Source: Bacteroidota bacterium (GTDB taxonomy: Bacteria > Bacteroidota > Bacteroidia > Flavobacteriales > Schleiferiaceae). Taken from it: a DNA stretch of 64,000 nucleotides. The stretch lies in the NCBI GenBank assembly GCA_024742495.1, contig JANSYJ010000002.1, forward strand, positions 1 through 64,000, written 5' to 3'. The notes under the pieces were generated by a model. It ran no database searches, was not told where the DNA came from, and saw nothing but the letters and a program-made list of their open reading frames with translations. How positions within the stretch are numbered: the stretch's first letter is position 1; each line of letters opens with the position of its first letter. This document shows, piece by piece, positions 40,491 to 46,304 of this stretch. The translations under genes and the position numbers were made by a program.

Positions 40491-41144
40491 ATGACGGAAA
40501 ATTTACAGCAAACCAAGGAAATCTTAAAGCAGAACTTCCCCATCTTCAATAATGAAAGTCTTATTGATCGCATCGCAAACCATGCTCGTGTATTTAAGAA
40601 TGAAAAAGAAGAGCTTATTGTTGATTTGGGTGATTTCCCAAAATGGATTCCGCTGGTTACTAAAGGGGCTTTAAAAATAAGCCGAGCAGATTCAGATGGG
40701 GGTGAAATATTCCTCTACTATTTGTATCCCGGTCAAACTTGTGCCATGACTTTAAACTGCTGTATGATTGATAAGCCAAGTGAAATTAGAGCAGTAGCTG
40801 AAGCTGGTACAGAGTACATTGGGCTGCCGCGTAAAAGTCTGGCAGAGTGGATGATGGAATTTGAAGAGTGGCGCCAGTTTACGCTCGAATCATACAATGA
40901 TCGTTATGAGAACTTATTGGCAACGATTGATGCCATTGCCTTTCATAAATTAGATGAACGATTACTTGGATTGCTGCAGGATAAAAGCATTGCCTTGGGC
41001 AGTACCAAGGTTGAAATTACGCACAAAAAGTTGGCAGAAGAGCTGCATTCTTCGCGAGAGGTGGTTTCAAGATTGTTGAAGCAGTTAGAGAAGGTAGGAA
41101 AGGTTAGCCTGCAAAGGAATCAAATTGAACTAATTGATTTCTAG
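40491..41144 (+). CDS. Crp/Fnr-family transcriptional regulator
   Basis: The 217-residue protein has an N-terminal cyclic-nucleotide-type beta barrel (about 15-115), a dimer helix (115-150) and a winged helix-turn-helix (about 155-215). The recognition helix SSREVVSRLLKQLE carries Arg189, Glu190, Ser193 and Arg194, the positions used by Crp and Fnr to read TGTGA/TTGAT half-sites. Cys84, Cys90 and Cys91 (GQTCAMTLNCCM) could sense sulfur or redox state. The N-terminal [4Fe-4S] cluster of Fnr is absent. ATG 40491 is preferred over GTG 40467. Neighbours encode a CDO-like protein and a rhodanese. Confidence 0.88.
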   Translation: MTENLQQTKEILKQNFPIFNNESLIDRIANHARVFKNEKEELIVDLGDFPKWIPLVTKGALKISRADSDGGEIFLYYLYPGQTCAMTLNCCMIDKPSEIRAVAEAGTEYIGLPRKSLAEWMMEFEEWRQFTLESYNDRYENLLATIDAIAFHKLDERLLGLLQDKSIALGSTKVEITHKKLAEELHSSREVVSRLLKQLEKVGKVSLQRNQIELIDF

Positions 41145-41145
41145 C

Positions 41146-41157
41146 TGATAAATGTCA
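41146..41157. promoter_or_regulatory. Crp/Fnr-like dyad before the CDO-like gene
   Basis: TGA-N6-TCA (within GCTGATAAATGTCATT), 2 bases behind the regulator stop and about 30 bp before a possible -7 element TACATTCC (41181-41188). Its centre would lie near -40. The match is weak in the outer positions. Confidence 0.4.
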
Positions 41158-41206
41158 TTTTTTTTTCGGTGAATGCTGCCTACATTCCATTCTAAAATCA
41201 GAAGTA

Positions 41207-41731
41207 ATGGAAGCTATTAAAACGGTAGATCAACTGAAATACAATCTTACCCTCGGGCCAGGATACGGGGGCTATAGTGATTTGCTAAAAGCGGTAAAAT
41301 TTGACCCTAAGGCCCTTCAAGACTATCTACAGTTTAATTCAGAAACCTATCAACGCATTCGGATTTACGATTCGGATACGGTGGAAGCGGTAATCACCTG
41401 TTGGGAACCTGGACAAAAAGGAATGATCCACGATTTTCACCATTCTCTAGGATGGTTTAAAGTGCTAAAAGGAGCAGTAGGGGTGGAGCATTACAGCATG
41501 CAGAAGGACGAGCCGATATTGCGCTTTAATTATGATTATCCGGAGGATACTCAGGGTTTTTTAAATGATGACTTGGGTTTTCACCGCTTCTCTAATTTGA
41601 GCTTGGGAAGGAGTATAGTTCTTCATTTTTATGCGGATAAGATTAAACATTGGGAGGTGTATAATGAGAAACGCCATCAAGTGGAGGATATAGAAGCCAC
41701 AGTGCATCGTAATTTCGATAAGCCTGCCTAA
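41207..41731 (+). CDS. Cysteine dioxygenase-like cupin protein
   Basis: The 174-residue protein shows the CDO pattern: YQRIRIYDSDTVEAVITCWEPGQKGMIHDF, LGWFKVLKGAV and NDDLGFHRFSNLSLGRSIVLHFY. CDO oxidises cysteine to cysteine sulfinate with an Fe(II) bound by three His. Here His75 and His126 are present, but the second ligand (HDH in known enzymes) is Phe77, with His78 and His79 following; so activity is uncertain. His140 and Tyr142 of the usual triad are kept. The gene lies between a Crp-like regulator and a rhodanese gene, which supports a sulfur role. Confidence 0.75.
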   Translation: MEAIKTVDQLKYNLTLGPGYGGYSDLLKAVKFDPKALQDYLQFNSETYQRIRIYDSDTVEAVITCWEPGQKGMIHDFHHSLGWFKVLKGAVGVEHYSMQKDEPILRFNYDYPEDTQGFLNDDLGFHRFSNLSLGRSIVLHFYADKIKHWEVYNEKRHQVEDIEATVHRNFDKPA

Positions 41732-41754
41732 TCGTGTGATGGCTGTCACGATTA
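41729..41754. promoter_or_regulatory. Crp-like operator before the rhodanese gene
   Basis: A perfect inverted repeat TAATCGTG-N10-CACGATTA overlaps TGTGA-N6-TCACG (41735-41750), very close to the Crp consensus TGTGA-N6-TCACA. It lies at the CDO stop codon and about 25 bp before the -7 element TAAATTTG. Confidence 0.6.
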
Positions 41755-41766
41755 GAGTGAGGATTT

Positions 41767-41774
41767 TAAATTTG
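41767..41774 (+). promoter_or_regulatory. -7 element of the rhodanese gene
   Basis: TAAATTTG, 25 bases before ATG 41800. No TTTG lies at -33; the inverted repeat occupies that place, as in activator-dependent promoters. Confidence 0.6.
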
Positions 41775-41799
41775 CTTTGCGCCACAATTACAGAAACAC

Positions 41800-42105
41800 A
41801 TGGGTATCTTTTCTTTTCTCAACCGCAAAGGCGAAAAAATTAGTGACTTTAAAAGTCGCAATGCGCTTATAATAGACGTTCGCACAAAGGCTGAGTTTCA
41901 GCAGGGTCACATCAAGGGATCTAAAAACATTCCCTTAAACAACATTGCTTCCAAGACTGTGGAAATTAAAAAAATGGATAAGCCCATTATCTTTTGTTGT
42001 GCTTCTGGTATGCGCAGTGGTCAGGCTACCGCTTTGGCAAAGAGAGAAGGTATCGAGTGTATGAATGGAGGAGGCTGGTCCAGCTTAAAACGACACTGGT
42101 CTTAG
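41800..42105 (+). CDS. Single-domain rhodanese (sulfurtransferase)
   Basis: The 101-residue protein has IIDVRTKAEFQQGHIKGSKNIPL and an active-site loop CASGMRS with catalytic Cys67, preceded by Cys66. It transfers sulfane sulfur through a Cys persulfide. No signal peptide is seen, so it is cytoplasmic. Six-residue loops with a small second residue are typical of PspE/GlpE-size proteins. Neighbouring CDO-like and Crp genes suggest a role in cysteine or persulfide balance. Confidence 0.92.
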   Translation: MGIFSFLNRKGEKISDFKSRNALIIDVRTKAEFQQGHIKGSKNIPLNNIASKTVEIKKMDKPIIFCCASGMRSGQATALAKREGIECMNGGGWSSLKRHWS

Positions 42106-42152: not shown

Positions 42153-43190
42153 ATGTTCGATAAGACTTTAAGCAGCCTTAGTGATTTAGCGGTTCATTTT
42201 ATTGGTAATAAATCTAAGGAGGAAGAGCTTCGCCTTAGTGCCGCTCAAAGTGGATTAGATCACCCCACTCGGAATATTATCTGGCACTATCTGCAAAGTG
42301 CATTTCGGGATCCCGCATTTTATCAATTCAATCATCCTAGCGGTTTAGAGTTTAATAACCTTTTTAAGGTTTGCCAGTCGCTTTTTAGCAAAAATCAAGA
42401 TTTCTTAAGTGCCTCGCGACAAATGGCTCAACTGCTATTTGAGGTCTCCGACCATCCTCAAGTTAAGTCGGGGGAGCTCTTAGTTATCTATTTTGAAAAC
42501 CTACGTTATAGCGGAATAGAGGCGCCAGCCATAGCCCTTTTCAAATCAGAGCAGAAACATCCATTTCTATTTACGGAGGAAGAGGATGCCAATATTGAAC
42601 TTTACAGTTATCAAGGTATAAATCCCACTAAAGTGGATAAGGCGGCCTTAATTTTTAATACGGATGAAGAGGAGGGTTTCCAAATCTTGGCCGTAGATAA
42701 TATCAATAAAGGAGATGAGGCTAAGTTTTGGTTTGAATCCTTTCTGAAAATTCAAATGCGCAGTACCGAGTTTGTTAAAACTTCCGAGTTGATAAAGGTT
42801 ACAAAAAGCTTTGTTGATCAGGATCTAGGTGCTGATGCTCCCTTGGAAAGAACGGAAAGCTTGGAGTTTATGGGTCGCTCAAAAGAATATTTTGAGTTGG
42901 AGGAAGTCTATGATCCAGAAGCATACAGTAAGCAAGTTTTTCAGGATGAGGGCGTGGCCGATCGGTTTCAGGAATTTGTGAAGTCGCGCGACATACAAAA
43001 CCTAGAACTGGATAGTAATTTTGATATCTCCGATGAGGCCCTTAAAAAGAAAGGTCGCGTATTTAAATCGGTAATTAAGCTGGATAAAAACTTTCACGTA
43101 TATGTGCATGGCGATCGCAGCAAAATAGAAAAGGGCACAGACGATGATGGCCGCCAGTTTTACAAGTTGTATTTCGACGAGGAACACTAA
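42153..43190 (+). CDS. Nucleoid-associated protein (NdpA/YejK-like)
   Basis: The 345-residue cytoplasmic protein matches the 37-kDa nucleoid-associated family: SDLAVHFIGNKSKEEELRLS at the start, SGELLVIYFENL and IALFKSEQK in the middle, and NFDISDEALKKKGRVFKSVIKLDKNFHVYVHG near the end. E. coli YejK binds nucleoid DNA and topoisomerases. It is likely monocistronic. Confidence 0.85.
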   Translation: MFDKTLSSLSDLAVHFIGNKSKEEELRLSAAQSGLDHPTRNIIWHYLQSAFRDPAFYQFNHPSGLEFNNLFKVCQSLFSKNQDFLSASRQMAQLLFEVSDHPQVKSGELLVIYFENLRYSGIEAPAIALFKSEQKHPFLFTEEEDANIELYSYQGINPTKVDKAALIFNTDEEEGFQILAVDNINKGDEAKFWFESFLKIQMRSTEFVKTSELIKVTKSFVDQDLGADAPLERTESLEFMGRSKEYFELEEVYDPEAYSKQVFQDEGVADRFQEFVKSRDIQNLELDSNFDISDEALKKKGRVFKSVIKLDKNFHVYVHGDRSKIEKGTDDDGRQFYKLYFDEEH

Positions 43191-43225: not shown

Positions 43226-45448
43226 TTATGGTAATCGATAATAAAGGCCGAGATAGATATTGCGACCGAAAATAGGCCCCCAAATAAAGTTGCTATCGAA
43301 ATAATCGCCAAAAGCTTGATTGGGATTTACGATAGGATTTTCTTGACGGTAGTCAAGCACATTATCAGCACCAACAAAGAATTCAAAATCCTTCCAGGTC
43401 CTATTAATTTGGAGGTTTAATGTGCTAAAGTCTGGTGACCAATCAAGCTGTTGAAATTCAGCCGGGCTTTCTTCCGTTTTGGGAAGACGTTTTTCGCCAA
43501 ACCAATTTAAGGTTGCGTCTATTTTCCAATCCTCTCGCCACTCATAAGCCACATTTAAAAAGGCGCGATGCAAGGGTACTTGGTAATTAATTGCAAGACC
43601 TTCTAAGAAATTCTCTTGACTATTCAAGTATTTGTAAGCCAGTCTAAAGTCGAGGTTTTCTATAGGACTGTAATCCAATTGACTTAAAATTGAAAGGGAG
43701 TTCGAGCCGCTGCGATTTACGATAAAAGCGCTTCGGGGATCATAATCTAAATCCAAAACCACCTTCGATTCGAACCAGGTATAAAAAAGGTCTGTGTTCC
43801 ATCGTATGAGTTGCTCGCCAATAACTAAGTTCTGACTCCAGCTAAAGCCAGTATTCCATGCTATTTCGGGGAAATTATAGTCATCTACAAAAACCAAATT
43901 ACGCGATGAAGCCAAGGCGCTGGCATTTTCCGCCAAACGGTTGGGGCTTCTTTGGCCTCGCCCACCACTAAGTCTTAGTGTTGTATTGCGATGGACTTGA
44001 TATCTAAATTGAAGTCTTGGACTTATATAGGTCTTTTGGAAAAAGCTATTATAATCTGCCCGGACTCCGGCCACAAGACTAAAATCATCATCGGGTAAAT
44101 AAGTGTATTCAAAATAAGCTCCAGGTACAATTTCTTGACGCTCATGGCGGTAGTCTTCAATGCCCAAAGTGCTTAGGTCTTCACTTATTTGATCGGCATT
44201 AAGTGATAAGCCTGTTTTAAATTGATGGGTAAGATTTCCAATGAAATCGTGGAAAATAGTGTTTAAGTAGAAATTTGCCTGCTGGCTATTTAGATCTCTC
44301 AATCCAAAGCTACTTCCACGTTCTTGATAGTTTGCGCCGTATATAATTCCGATGCTGCGCAATTCCTCCTCAGGAAAGATGTAGCCATTTTTGCCAAATA
44401 CTTCATAGCGCCTTTCTCTATTCGTAAAACCCCAGTTATTCGTTCCATTTTCATTAATGAAGTCTACTTGGCCACCTTCTCGAATATCATCTACGAAGAG
44501 TAATCCGAACTGACCTTCCCAATCGTCGCCAATATGATAATGAGCGCGATGCAGGGCATTTAATTGGCGACCCGTGGTGAGATCTGCAAAACCATCATTG
44601 TTGCGATCTTGGGCAAAAGGAATACTGCTAAAATGAAGCATGGTGGTATGATGCGCATGGCTCTCATCATCCCATCCGCTGCGAATGAGTGCATTAAGTT
44701 CATTTCTTCCTCCTGTATTGCCAAAGGCATTTAGAAGTAAACGAGGGGCATTTTCCGGTTTATAATACTCCACATTTATTTGGCCGGTTATGCTTTCATA
44801 GCCATTCATTACCGAGCTTAGGCCTTTTGTAACTTGAATGCTTTCAATAAATGGTCCGGGTACAAATGAAAGACCATTGCGGGCGTTTAAGCCTCTGGCG
44901 AATGGAATGTTTTCTCTTTGGATGAGAGCGTATTTACCGGCTAAACCCAGCATTTCAATCTGCTTGGTACCGGTAATTCCATCACTAAAAGAAACATCGA
45001 TACTGGCATTGGTTTCAAAGCTCTCAGAGAGGTTGCAGCATGCCGCCTTTCTTAATTCTTTGGTTCCTATTTCATAGTGTAGGCCCGCCGCTTCAAGGGC
45101 GATTCTCGTGGCCTCTGCCTCTCCAGTTACGGTTACGCCATCTAATTCCGTGGCGCTTGGAATAAGGATGAAATCGGTGGTTCCTTTGCGGGAGATGATC
45201 ACCTTCGATTGAGACTGAAAACCGGCGAAGTTTACAACAAGCTTGTTATAGCCCGCTATTTTATTAATGATGTAATAGCCATCATTAGAGGTGGTGGTGC
45301 CAATGTCGCTTCCTTCCCAGTAAACTTCTGCCAATGGAGCAGGCGTTTTTTGTCCGTTTTCGAAAAGGTAAACATGGCCCTCGATTTGAGCGCATAGATT
45401 TAATCCACCCCCAAGGATAAGGGTGAAAAGTAGAGTCCGAAATTTCAT
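43226..45448 (-). CDS. TonB-dependent receptor, probable copper/metal type
   Basis: The 740-residue receptor has a signal peptide (MKFRTLLFTLILGGGLNLCAQ), a CarboxypepD_reg-like domain (IEGHVYLFENGQKTPAPLAEVYW, about 22-100), a plug with KELRKAACCNLSESFETNASIDVSFSDG (about 135-160) and a beta-barrel ending in RNIYLGLYYRLP. The CC motif in the plug, the DDESHAHHTTMLHF loop and its operon with an HMA protein and a His/Cys-rich protein point to copper or a similar metal, by inference. It starts 5 bp behind the HMA gene. Confidence 0.8.
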   Translation of the reverse strand: MKFRTLLFTLILGGGLNLCAQIEGHVYLFENGQKTPAPLAEVYWEGSDIGTTTSNDGYYIINKIAGYNKLVVNFAGFQSQSKVIISRKGTTDFILIPSATELDGVTVTGEAEATRIALEAAGLHYEIGTKELRKAACCNLSESFETNASIDVSFSDGITGTKQIEMLGLAGKYALIQRENIPFARGLNARNGLSFVPGPFIESIQVTKGLSSVMNGYESITGQINVEYYKPENAPRLLLNAFGNTGGRNELNALIRSGWDDESHAHHTTMLHFSSIPFAQDRNNDGFADLTTGRQLNALHRAHYHIGDDWEGQFGLLFVDDIREGGQVDFINENGTNNWGFTNRERRYEVFGKNGYIFPEEELRSIGIIYGANYQERGSSFGLRDLNSQQANFYLNTIFHDFIGNLTHQFKTGLSLNADQISEDLSTLGIEDYRHERQEIVPGAYFEYTYLPDDDFSLVAGVRADYNSFFQKTYISPRLQFRYQVHRNTTLRLSGGRGQRSPNRLAENASALASSRNLVFVDDYNFPEIAWNTGFSWSQNLVIGEQLIRWNTDLFYTWFESKVVLDLDYDPRSAFIVNRSGSNSLSILSQLDYSPIENLDFRLAYKYLNSQENFLEGLAINYQVPLHRAFLNVAYEWREDWKIDATLNWFGEKRLPKTEESPAEFQQLDWSPDFSTLNLQINRTWKDFEFFVGADNVLDYRQENPIVNPNQAFGDYFDSNFIWGPIFGRNIYLGLYYRLP

Positions 45449-45453
45449 AAGCT

Positions 45454-45801
45454 TTACTTCTTCTTATGAAAATTATTCGGGTCGCGATAATAGCAACAAG
45501 GGTCTAGTTTGTAGTAAGCGGTATCAGAGGCTGTTTCAAATTCGGTATCGTAACCGGATTTAACGATAGAAGCGTTAATAGCCTTTAGGTCAACTTGTTC
45601 AGGGTCGAATTTCACGCGAAGGGTAAGGCTTTCTAATTCCCATTCTGCAAAGCTTACTCCTTCGAGCTTTGCCGCTTTTTCGATGGTGCTTTTACACATA
45701 TTACAAACACCATTAACAATGAGGGTGGTATCAGTACTAGCCTGGGCTTGCGCACTAAATGCGAATAATAGAAATGGAAGGGCTAAAATTATATTTTTCA
45801 T
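45454..45801 (-). CDS. Periplasmic heavy-metal-associated (HMA) domain protein
   Basis: The 115-residue protein has a signal peptide (MKNIILALPFLLFAFSAQAQ) and an HMA fold with the metal-binding CxxC at Cys33 and Cys36 (NGVCNMCKSTIEKAAK), YD near GYDTEFE, and a second cluster DPCCYY near the C-terminus (HKKK tail). It likely binds Cu(I) in the periplasm and hands it to or takes it from the TonB receptor route. It lies between the HYC gene and the receptor gene. Confidence 0.85.
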   Translation of the reverse strand: MKNIILALPFLLFAFSAQAQASTDTTLIVNGVCNMCKSTIEKAAKLEGVSFAEWELESLTLRVKFDPEQVDLKAINASIVKSGYDTEFETASDTAYYKLDPCCYYRDPNNFHKKK

Positions 45802-45851
45802 GATTTAAGACTTTTATTAATTAATAGACGACGGAGGAATCTATTAGTAGC

Positions 45852-46304
45852 CTAAATCAAATAGCGTTGTATTTCTGCTAAATATTGTTGGACTGCCTTA
45901 CTTCGTTCGAGAAAAACAAAGTCAATTAAGGGTATAGTTTGCTTGAGCCCTATGTTTATAGGAAGAAGCTTTGAGAAACTTGTTTGTGCCTTAAATTCAT
46001 TTTGCTTGGCGGAAAAAGCCAGTTTTTCGTCGGCAAAACCTAAAACGTCAATGCCTTCGATTTGCAGCCAGATGTTCTCACAGCAACCTTTGGTTTCACT
46101 TTGGCAATGGCTGGCTTTGTTTTGACTATGTGATTCCGAATGGCATGAAGACATTGTGGGTTTAGACTCACAAACCTCAGTGCTGTGGTAAAGATGCTCC
46201 TCTACAAGCATGCCGAGGCAATAGTGCCTGCTGATGGAAAAGCCCATACTCGCCCAGAGTAAGGCGGGTACTAAACCAAATGCTATGAGTTTGCGTAAAA
46301 TCAC
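45852..46304 (-). CDS. HYC_CC_PP-like His/Cys-rich exported protein
   Basis: The 150-residue protein has an N-terminal hydrophobic segment (LIAFGLVPALLWASMGFSI), directly followed by the HYC motif (residues 27-29), then a Cys/His-rich stretch (C45, C54, C67, C74, C75, several His and Met) and a hydrophilic tail. This is the pattern of HYC_CC_PP proteins that precede copper receptors in Bacteroidota. Translation is predicted from GTG 46304. A TATTTTTG element at 46309-46316 lies only 4 bases upstream, which would make the message nearly leaderless. Confidence 0.65.
   Translation of the reverse strand: MILRKLIAFGLVPALLWASMGFSISRHYCLGMLVEEHLYHSTEVCESKPTMSSCHSESHSQNKASHCQSETKGCCENIWLQIEGIDVLGFADEKLAFSAKQNEFKAQTSFSKLLPINIGLKQTIPLIDFVFLERSKAVQQYLAEIQRYLI

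Follow-up and report, generated by a model that had tools for sequence, protein, structure and literature searches.

A Crp-type regulator and its putative class II site at sulfane-sulfur genes in a Schleiferiaceae genome and its relatives

A Crp-type regulator encoded in the window, a stretch of 64,000 nucleotides from a Schleiferiaceae genome (a marine lineage of Bacteroidota), is well supported by sequence comparison as a class II activator of sulfane-sulfur genes. We propose that it activates transcription of a regulon for sulfane-sulfur (persulfide) oxidation. The regulator dimer would bind GTGAY-N4-RTYAC about 41 bases 5' of the transcription start, replacing a −33 element, and would thereby activate a rhodanese gene, a rhodanese-rhodanese-thioredoxin (RRT) operon, and a TauE/MBL-rhodanese (TauE-MBL) operon. 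The trigger would most likely be a persulfide or polysulfide that reacts with Cys84, a residue at the place where cyclic-nucleotide sensors hold the ligand phosphate. The adjoining CDO-like gene carries an Fnr-class dyad and would probably be driven mainly by a second, Fnr-like Crp protein. Taken as a whole (persulfide regulon, class II site, Cys84 trigger, and CDO-like gene under the Fnr-like protein), this model is considered moderately probable.

The three genes described in an earlier note on this DNA were present and intact in the window on the + strand, and their assignment was supported by Pfam. They encode the regulator (40491–41144, 217 aa, with a PF13545 HTH_Crp_2 match), the CDO-like cupin protein (41207–41731, 174 aa; PF05995 CDO_I, 46.8 bits with a cut-off of 23), and a single-domain rhodanese (41800–42105, 101 aa; PF00581, 60.7 bits), in which the rhodanese domain is accompanied by an active-site Cys loop (CASGMR). 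The genome of the window (G000) comprised 3.6 Mb in 32 contigs. The gene order of regulator, CDO-like gene, rhodanese, and a 345-aa NA37-type gene was kept in all seven genomes of the genus, where the NA37 identity was based on a Pfam test for the window and G015 and on sequence likeness in the rest. In G013 and G015, which represent two other genera of the same family, the regulator and CDO-like genes are separated by an MBL-double-rhodanese gene, and in G009, MBL, CDO-like, and rhodanese genes were clustered with the regulator absent from their side. The MBL gene of the window's own genome lies away from the locus, in a TauE-MBL-methyltransferase cluster on contig C30. All 11 related CDO-like loci that have named records came from MAGs (Flavobacteriales, Bacteroidetes, Bacteroidia, Cryomorphaceae, or Owenweeksia). 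The NA37 (37-kD nucleoid-associated) gene lies 3' of the rhodanese at 42153–43190 and has a counterpart in each of the six other genus genomes. A cluster on the − strand (43226–46304) adjoins the locus and recurs across the genus; its genes, which point to metal handling, encode an HMA-domain protein, what looks by eye like a TonB receptor, and a small protein rich in Cys and His that matched no Pfam family.

The MBL proteins of G015 and G013 combine PF00753 with two PF00581 stretches, the MBL plus rhodanese arrangement of the CstB/ETHE1 type, and the copy in the window's genome (C30:24779) shared 56% identity with that of G015 across residues 1–460. A PDB search with the G015 protein placed 3r2u and 3tp9, both MBL-rhodanese proteins, at the top, ahead of BpPRF and the persulfide dioxygenase ETHE1. 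CstB-type persulfide dioxygenase-sulfurtransferases such as these two (3r2u being, we assume, CstB itself) have an MBL and two rhodanese domains, as does the MBL gene of the regulon. The MBL-rhodanese protein is predicted to be persulfide-dioxygenase-like.

The TGTGA-N6-TCACG dyad noted earlier upstream of the rhodanese gene was found as TGTGATGGCTGTCACG at 41735–41750 (+ strand, centre at 41742/41743) and is the putative site of the regulator. Aligned upstream regions of the rhodanese, RRT, and TauE-MBL operons gave the consensus GTGAY-N4-RTYAC, referred to here as class A. The orthologous rhodanese dyad was found in all seven genus genomes, and in G015 and G013 (one mismatch). Downstream of the class A dyads, every genus genome read had a TTTG whose G is 37 or 38 bases away from the dyad centre; at the rhodanese gene, it stood at offset 37 in G013, G015, and all seven genus genomes. 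TTGCTTTG (41772–41779, + strand), which ends 37 bases past the dyad centre, is probably the −7 element of the rhodanese gene. The −7 element of Bacteroidota is TAnnTTTG; assuming that it applies here, the dyad centre falls near −41.5, the place of a class II activator, where the −33 element would be. The activator-like place assigned to the dyad in the earlier note thus stands, and the −7 element was reassigned. A perfect TAnnTTTG at offset 32 (41767–41774) occurs in the window's genome only (TTTG at that place in G002, CTTG in G001 and G005), and TAAATTTG was ruled out as the −7 element because the offset-37 element alone kept its register throughout the genus. A class II position near −41.5 is also found in the E. 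coli Fnr and Crp regulons, whose half-sites are TGTGA (Crp-like) and TGAT (Fnr-like); the class A sites differ from these regulons in their Bacteroidota −7 element and their sulfane-sulfur targets.

For the genome-wide counts, the frequency of the dyad alone was dropped as evidence, because the exact GTGAYN4RTCAC matched 11 times in the window's genome and 10 times in the reversed control, indicating no enrichment. The exact dyad gave 11, 3, 4, 3, and 4 matches in G000, G001, G002, G003, and G004 vs 10, 14, 12, 9, and 13 control matches, respectively, and two of the matches in each of these genomes were the rhodanese and RRT dyads. A composite pattern (dyad plus TTTG at 37–38 bases), with the reversed pattern as the control, was used to search 59 whole genomes. 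It matched three times in the 3.6 Mb of the window's genome, at the rhodanese (C12:41736), the RRT operon (C22:696181), and the TauE-MBL operon (C30:23881), vs no control match. Across the seven genus genomes, 20 of the 21 matches were at these three operons (rhodanese 7/7, RRT 7/7, and TauE-MBL 6/7), compared with five control matches, three in G003 and two in G004. The third composite match of G003 was elsewhere, and its TauE dyad had one mismatch. All 59 genomes together gave 107 matches (control, 31), of which 86 were outside the genus, with gene assignment covering a minority of these 86; 13 had a family regulator no more than 1.2 kb away. The motif search proposed earlier for this genome and its relatives was not above the control for the dyad alone in the five genomes counted and was above it for the dyad with the TTTG spacing. 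A looser pattern over the genus matched 26–43 times in each genome and exceeded its control in all except G006 (26 vs 26), with gene assignment covering a minority of the matches listed. The class A site, its promoter spacing, the genes downstream, and their conservation follow from comparison of these genomes. The circuit had been described as local; its tie between regulator and sulfur genes is supported, and its local extent is not, as the site-promoter unit recurs at two more operons elsewhere.

Several genes lacked the unit. The composite-pattern search found no class A site upstream of the NA37 gene of the window. The sqr genes of G001, G003, and G005 had weak sites with wrong spacing and no TTTG at 37, and no good class A site was found 5' of the MBL or rhodanese gene of G009 despite the MBL-CDO-rhodanese cluster there. 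Inspection by eye of the 200 bases preceding the regulator gene revealed no site indicating autoregulation.

To relate the sites to a protein, 54 family regulators (match E < 1e-20) and 19 remoter Crp proteins from the 59 genomes were compared. A composite site lay within 1.2 kb of 20 of the 54 family regulators vs none of the 19 remoter proteins. These 20 sites were always on the 3' side of the regulator, 13 of them outside the genus, and no composite site was found within 1.2 kb on the 5' side of any of the 54. The other 34 family regulators, including the rhodanese-adjoining ones of G045 and G057, had no composite site within 1.2 kb, and G032 (84% complete) had two composite matches and no family regulator. 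The neighbourhoods of 41 of the 54 family regulators were read, and 22 of these had rhodanese, MBL, TauE, or SulP as a neighbour no farther than 2.5 kb away (7/7 in the genus and 15/34 outside); the remaining 19 had no such neighbour, and in seven of these the sequence ran for less than 2.5 kb to one side or both. The window's genome encodes two Crp-HTH proteins, the regulator and an Fnr-like protein (C22:59638), whose best NCBIfam match was Fnr at 113.6 bits, below the cut-off of 228. The recognition helix, given earlier as Arg-Glu-xx-Ser-Arg, reads SREVVSR in the regulator and ATESVIR in the Fnr-like protein, and only the regulator has the Arg-Glu-x-x-x-Arg helix. Judging by E. coli Crp and Fnr, Arg at the first of these helix positions accompanies the outer G of TGTGA. 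On account of the adjacency, the class A sites were tied to the regulator family, and we infer that the regulator binds the class A dyad and controls transcription from it.

Second family regulators were observed in G053 (C1:2135515) and G040 (C3:212404), both with Cys84 and without Cys90. The class A composite site 3' of each precedes cytochrome-like and YceI-like genes (by eye), which are not sulfane-sulfur genes, so the regulator family may have a wider role.

The HTH domain of the regulator matched PF13545 at 36.2 bits (cut-off, 27) and is of the CRP/FNR type. Its sensor domain scored 25.5 bits with PF00027, below the cut-off of 27.5, and was recognized as cNMP-binding type by fold: the AF2 model (pLDDT 86.8, pTM 0.63) had Crp-family proteins as its best PDB folds, the domain orientation being unsure at this pTM. 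The best PDB sequence match and nearest solved sequence was 3dv8 of Eubacterium rectale, which has the Crp fold and HTH and shares Cys84 and Cys90 with the regulator. Cys84, Cys90, and Cys91 are the only cysteines of the regulator, as had been noted. Their segment (PGQTCAMTLNCCM) sits at the place of the phosphate-binding cassette of cNMP-domain regulators and, in the phmmer alignment, pairs with NSVFG-VLSLLTGNKSDR of NtcA, which corresponds to the ligand-phosphate cassette region of Crp. In the AF2 model, it forms a short helix (87–93) and its approach, at lower confidence.

Among 30 aligned regulators, Cys84 was present in all, Cys90 in 27, and Cys91 in 22, and Cys84 was found at all 41 family regulator loci read. 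Cys90 was missing in five of the 22 regulators with a sulfur-gene neighbour (G019, G024, G035, G049, and G053), all 22 of which have Cys84. These five make it impossible for a disulfide or polysulfide bridge between Cys84 and Cys90 to be a general feature, and the Cys84–Cys90 dithiol was ruled out as a generally required sensor. Of the cysteine set proposed earlier, the invariant Cys84 is retained, and the need for the whole set is not. We infer that activation of the sulfane-sulfur genes follows from persulfide or polysulfide chemistry at Cys84, the signal being sensed through this residue. In the excerpts of PMC7315123, a Crp-like protein of Acinetobacter is reported to be highly persulfidated under sulfide.

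A different role for Cys84 is suggested by PgRsp of Porphyromonas gingivalis, probably the nearest described relative of the regulator and apparently a distant one, set beside it here by description only. The template of the PgRsp model was 3DV8, to which the regulator likewise had its best sequence match in the PDB, and PgRsp is described in the excerpts of PMC6955866 as heme-binding. The Cys76/Met78 spacing named for PgRsp equals that of Cys84/Met86, and only Cys84 is invariant while Cys90 and Cys91 vary; Cys84 might thus serve heme, as a ligand or structurally, in a sensor of oxygen, NO, or redox state and not of persulfide, with the sulfane-sulfur genes still as its targets. According to the same excerpts, however, single replacement of Cys76, Met78, or His85 left the PgRsp spectra unchanged. 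The 21-row alignment (A2) contained no invariant histidine in the sensor domain. PgRsp is described as a redox sensor of other genes, whereas the recognized neighbours of our regulator are sulfane-sulfur genes. A heme sensor is accordingly judged unlikely.

The TGA-N6-TCA dyad noted earlier 5' of the CDO-like gene was located at 41144–41159 (+ strand), with the core TGATAAATGTCA at 41146–41157, an A/T spacer, and a TCAT end. A weak, possible −7 element (TACATTC, 41181–41187, + strand) ends 36 bases from the dyad centre; [TC]TT[GC] at offset 36–37 was found in nine of 14 CDO orthologues, the window's genome not being among them. The CDO-gene dyads had the TCAT end in all 14 scored orthologues and A/T at all 56 bases of the four-base spacer, whereas the class A sites had both outer G and outer C in 25 of 25 and A/T at 41 of 100 spacer bases. 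The right outer C was found in 0/14 CDO dyads vs 25/25 class A sites, in a scoring that gave half a point each for outer G and outer C. The left outer G was present in six of the 14 CDO dyads, and the dyad of the window's genome had neither outer base. The RRT site of this genome was found with a pattern holding the outer G/C, while orthologous genes were picked by homology and not by site. The scored sets left out the G009 rhodanese, with its poor dyad, and the G048 CDO-like gene, upstream of which no clear dyad was found; none was scored for G059.

Sites of the CDO type were also present at ccoN (cbb3 oxidase; three), hemN (three), and ccoI-like P-type ATPase (two) genes of G000, G003, and G005, with the TCAT end in 8/8 and A/T at 32/32 spacer bases; these eight were chosen near the Fnr-like gene among the matches listed, with the outer bases ignored. 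Since the genes concerned lie near the Fnr-like Crp protein and the CDO dyad matches their class, the CDO-like gene is probably driven mainly by the Fnr-like protein, and its control by the regulator was dropped. The earlier view that the two genes have a dyad in common is thus not supported, as T was found in 14/14 CDO dyads at the position of the class A outer C (25/25), and the tie of the regulator to sulfane-sulfur genes is kept. With its two dyad classes, the locus would join sulfane sulfur as one input with oxygen or redox state as the other.

Joint control of the CDO-like gene and the rhodanese by one regulator reading both dyads would fit the TGAYN4RTCA that they share, the −7 position at 36–37 bases in both, the left outer G of the six CDO dyads, and the gene order kept in 7/7 genus genomes. 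Against this, the two sets differ in the right outer C (0/14 vs 25/25) and the A/T spacer (56/56 vs 41/100), the CDO dyads match all eight ccoN/hemN/ccoI-like sites, and the dyad of the window's genome lacks both outer bases. Such joint control is improbable to the same degree as the heme sensor; given the left outer G in 6/14, partial use of the CDO dyad by both Crp proteins is possible.

An exact GTGAYN4RTCAC dyad was also observed 5' of a YceI-family gene near the Fnr-like crp gene (G000:C22:55849-55862, G001:C69:48683-48696, and G003:C1:2282275-2282288), the family being Pfam-tested for the G000 gene. In G001, it overlaps a promoter with a TCAT-class site, the first base of the dyad being the final G of the TTTG there, and a protein bound at this place could block transcription start.

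The CDO-like protein has the CDO cupin fold by both its PF05995 match (46.8 bits) and its AF2 model (pLDDT 91.8), for which the top Foldseek matches in the PDB were cysteine dioxygenases. The fold agrees with that of cysteine dioxygenase type I (rat 2b5h and human 2ic1; TM ~0.8), and R50, H75, H126, and Y142 are kept as counterparts of rat R60, H86, H140, and Y157. F77 and G82 stand in place of His88 and Cys93, and with Phe77 the three-histidine iron site (His86, His88, and His140) is incomplete. In the residue table, which drew on 35 of 51 matches (16 weaker ones with E > 1e-20 being left out) less row G013p, the 18 members of the CDO-like clade had Phe/Tyr for His88 and Gly/Ala for Cys93, unlike type I enzymes, and the other 16 proteins all had both His88 and Cys93. 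Arg60, His140, and Tyr157 were kept in 18/18 clade members and His86 in 17/18 (Gln in G024). In the tree, which kept the two columns concerned (His88 and Cys93), the 18 members formed one side of a branch with support of 98/95, and the His88 change was counted once. No conserved substitute histidine was found in the clade next to the lost position. The CDO-like protein may oxidize persulfides or thiols at a two-histidine site, or it may bind thiols without catalysis.

An active cysteine dioxygenase feeding taurine or sulfite metabolism would be in line with the fold, the PF05995 match, and the four retained residues. It is quite improbable in view of the third iron ligand, which is Phe/Tyr in 18/18 members with no conserved substitute histidine adjacent, and of a separate canonical paralogue with all three histidines in six genus genomes (6/6 read). 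The control of cysteine oxidation proposed earlier for the circuit is therefore doubtful. Two CDO-like relatives, in G022 and G024 (L221, 5193–6615, −; L222, 6748–8187, +), were seen by eye beside universal-stress-type proteins with no sulfur gene recognized nearby; the G024 protein lacks both His86 and His88.

Service of both dyads by the Fnr-like protein alone, with incidental regulator adjacency, could appeal to the common core with nearly equal spacing and to the better match of that protein to known Crp/Fnr models, but is very improbable given the 20/54 vs 0/19 adjacency and the outer bases, which split by class without exception in the scored set.

Overall, the genes, cysteines, and dyad positions of the earlier observation stand, its −7 element and the sameness of its dyads do not, and its central idea, a cysteine-bearing regulator of sulfane-sulfur genes, was largely borne out and reaches past the locus. 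The regulator would work like the CsoR/ArsR/FisR persulfide sensors and is not a member of their families: it has Crp domains and a Crp fold and not a CsoR, ArsR, or sigma-54-activator fold. CstR (CsoR family), SqrR/BigR (ArsR family), and FisR belong to other protein families and control genes of the same kind (rhodanese, MBL persulfide dioxygenase, and TauE). Regulators of the CstR/SqrR type are repressors, whereas ours would be an activator by its site geometry, with cysteine sensing proposed for it.

Bacterial persulfide regulators mentioned in the literature excerpts include CstR, SqrR, BigR, FisR, MarR-type proteins, OxyR, and others, all of other families. The excerpts of the open-licence literature searched (including PMC9774590, PMC9603854, and PMC12040651) contained no Crp-type regulator of persulfide genes and named no Bacteroidota regulator of such genes.

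More tentatively, and with somewhat less than even confidence, we suggest a Crp/Fnr subfamily in which the phosphate cassette has given way to a cysteine segment in a dedicated persulfide-activated activator, together with a two-histidine CDO clade under oxygen (Fnr) control that acts on persulfides or binds thiols. The CDO-like clade without His88 raises the question of how a thiol-dioxygenase scaffold would use two iron-binding histidines. If the proposed model is true, a Crp-type activator with one site and one promoter spacing would extend persulfide control to Bacteroidota and would offer a ready test of a Crp protein that swaps its nucleotide pocket for a thiol switch.
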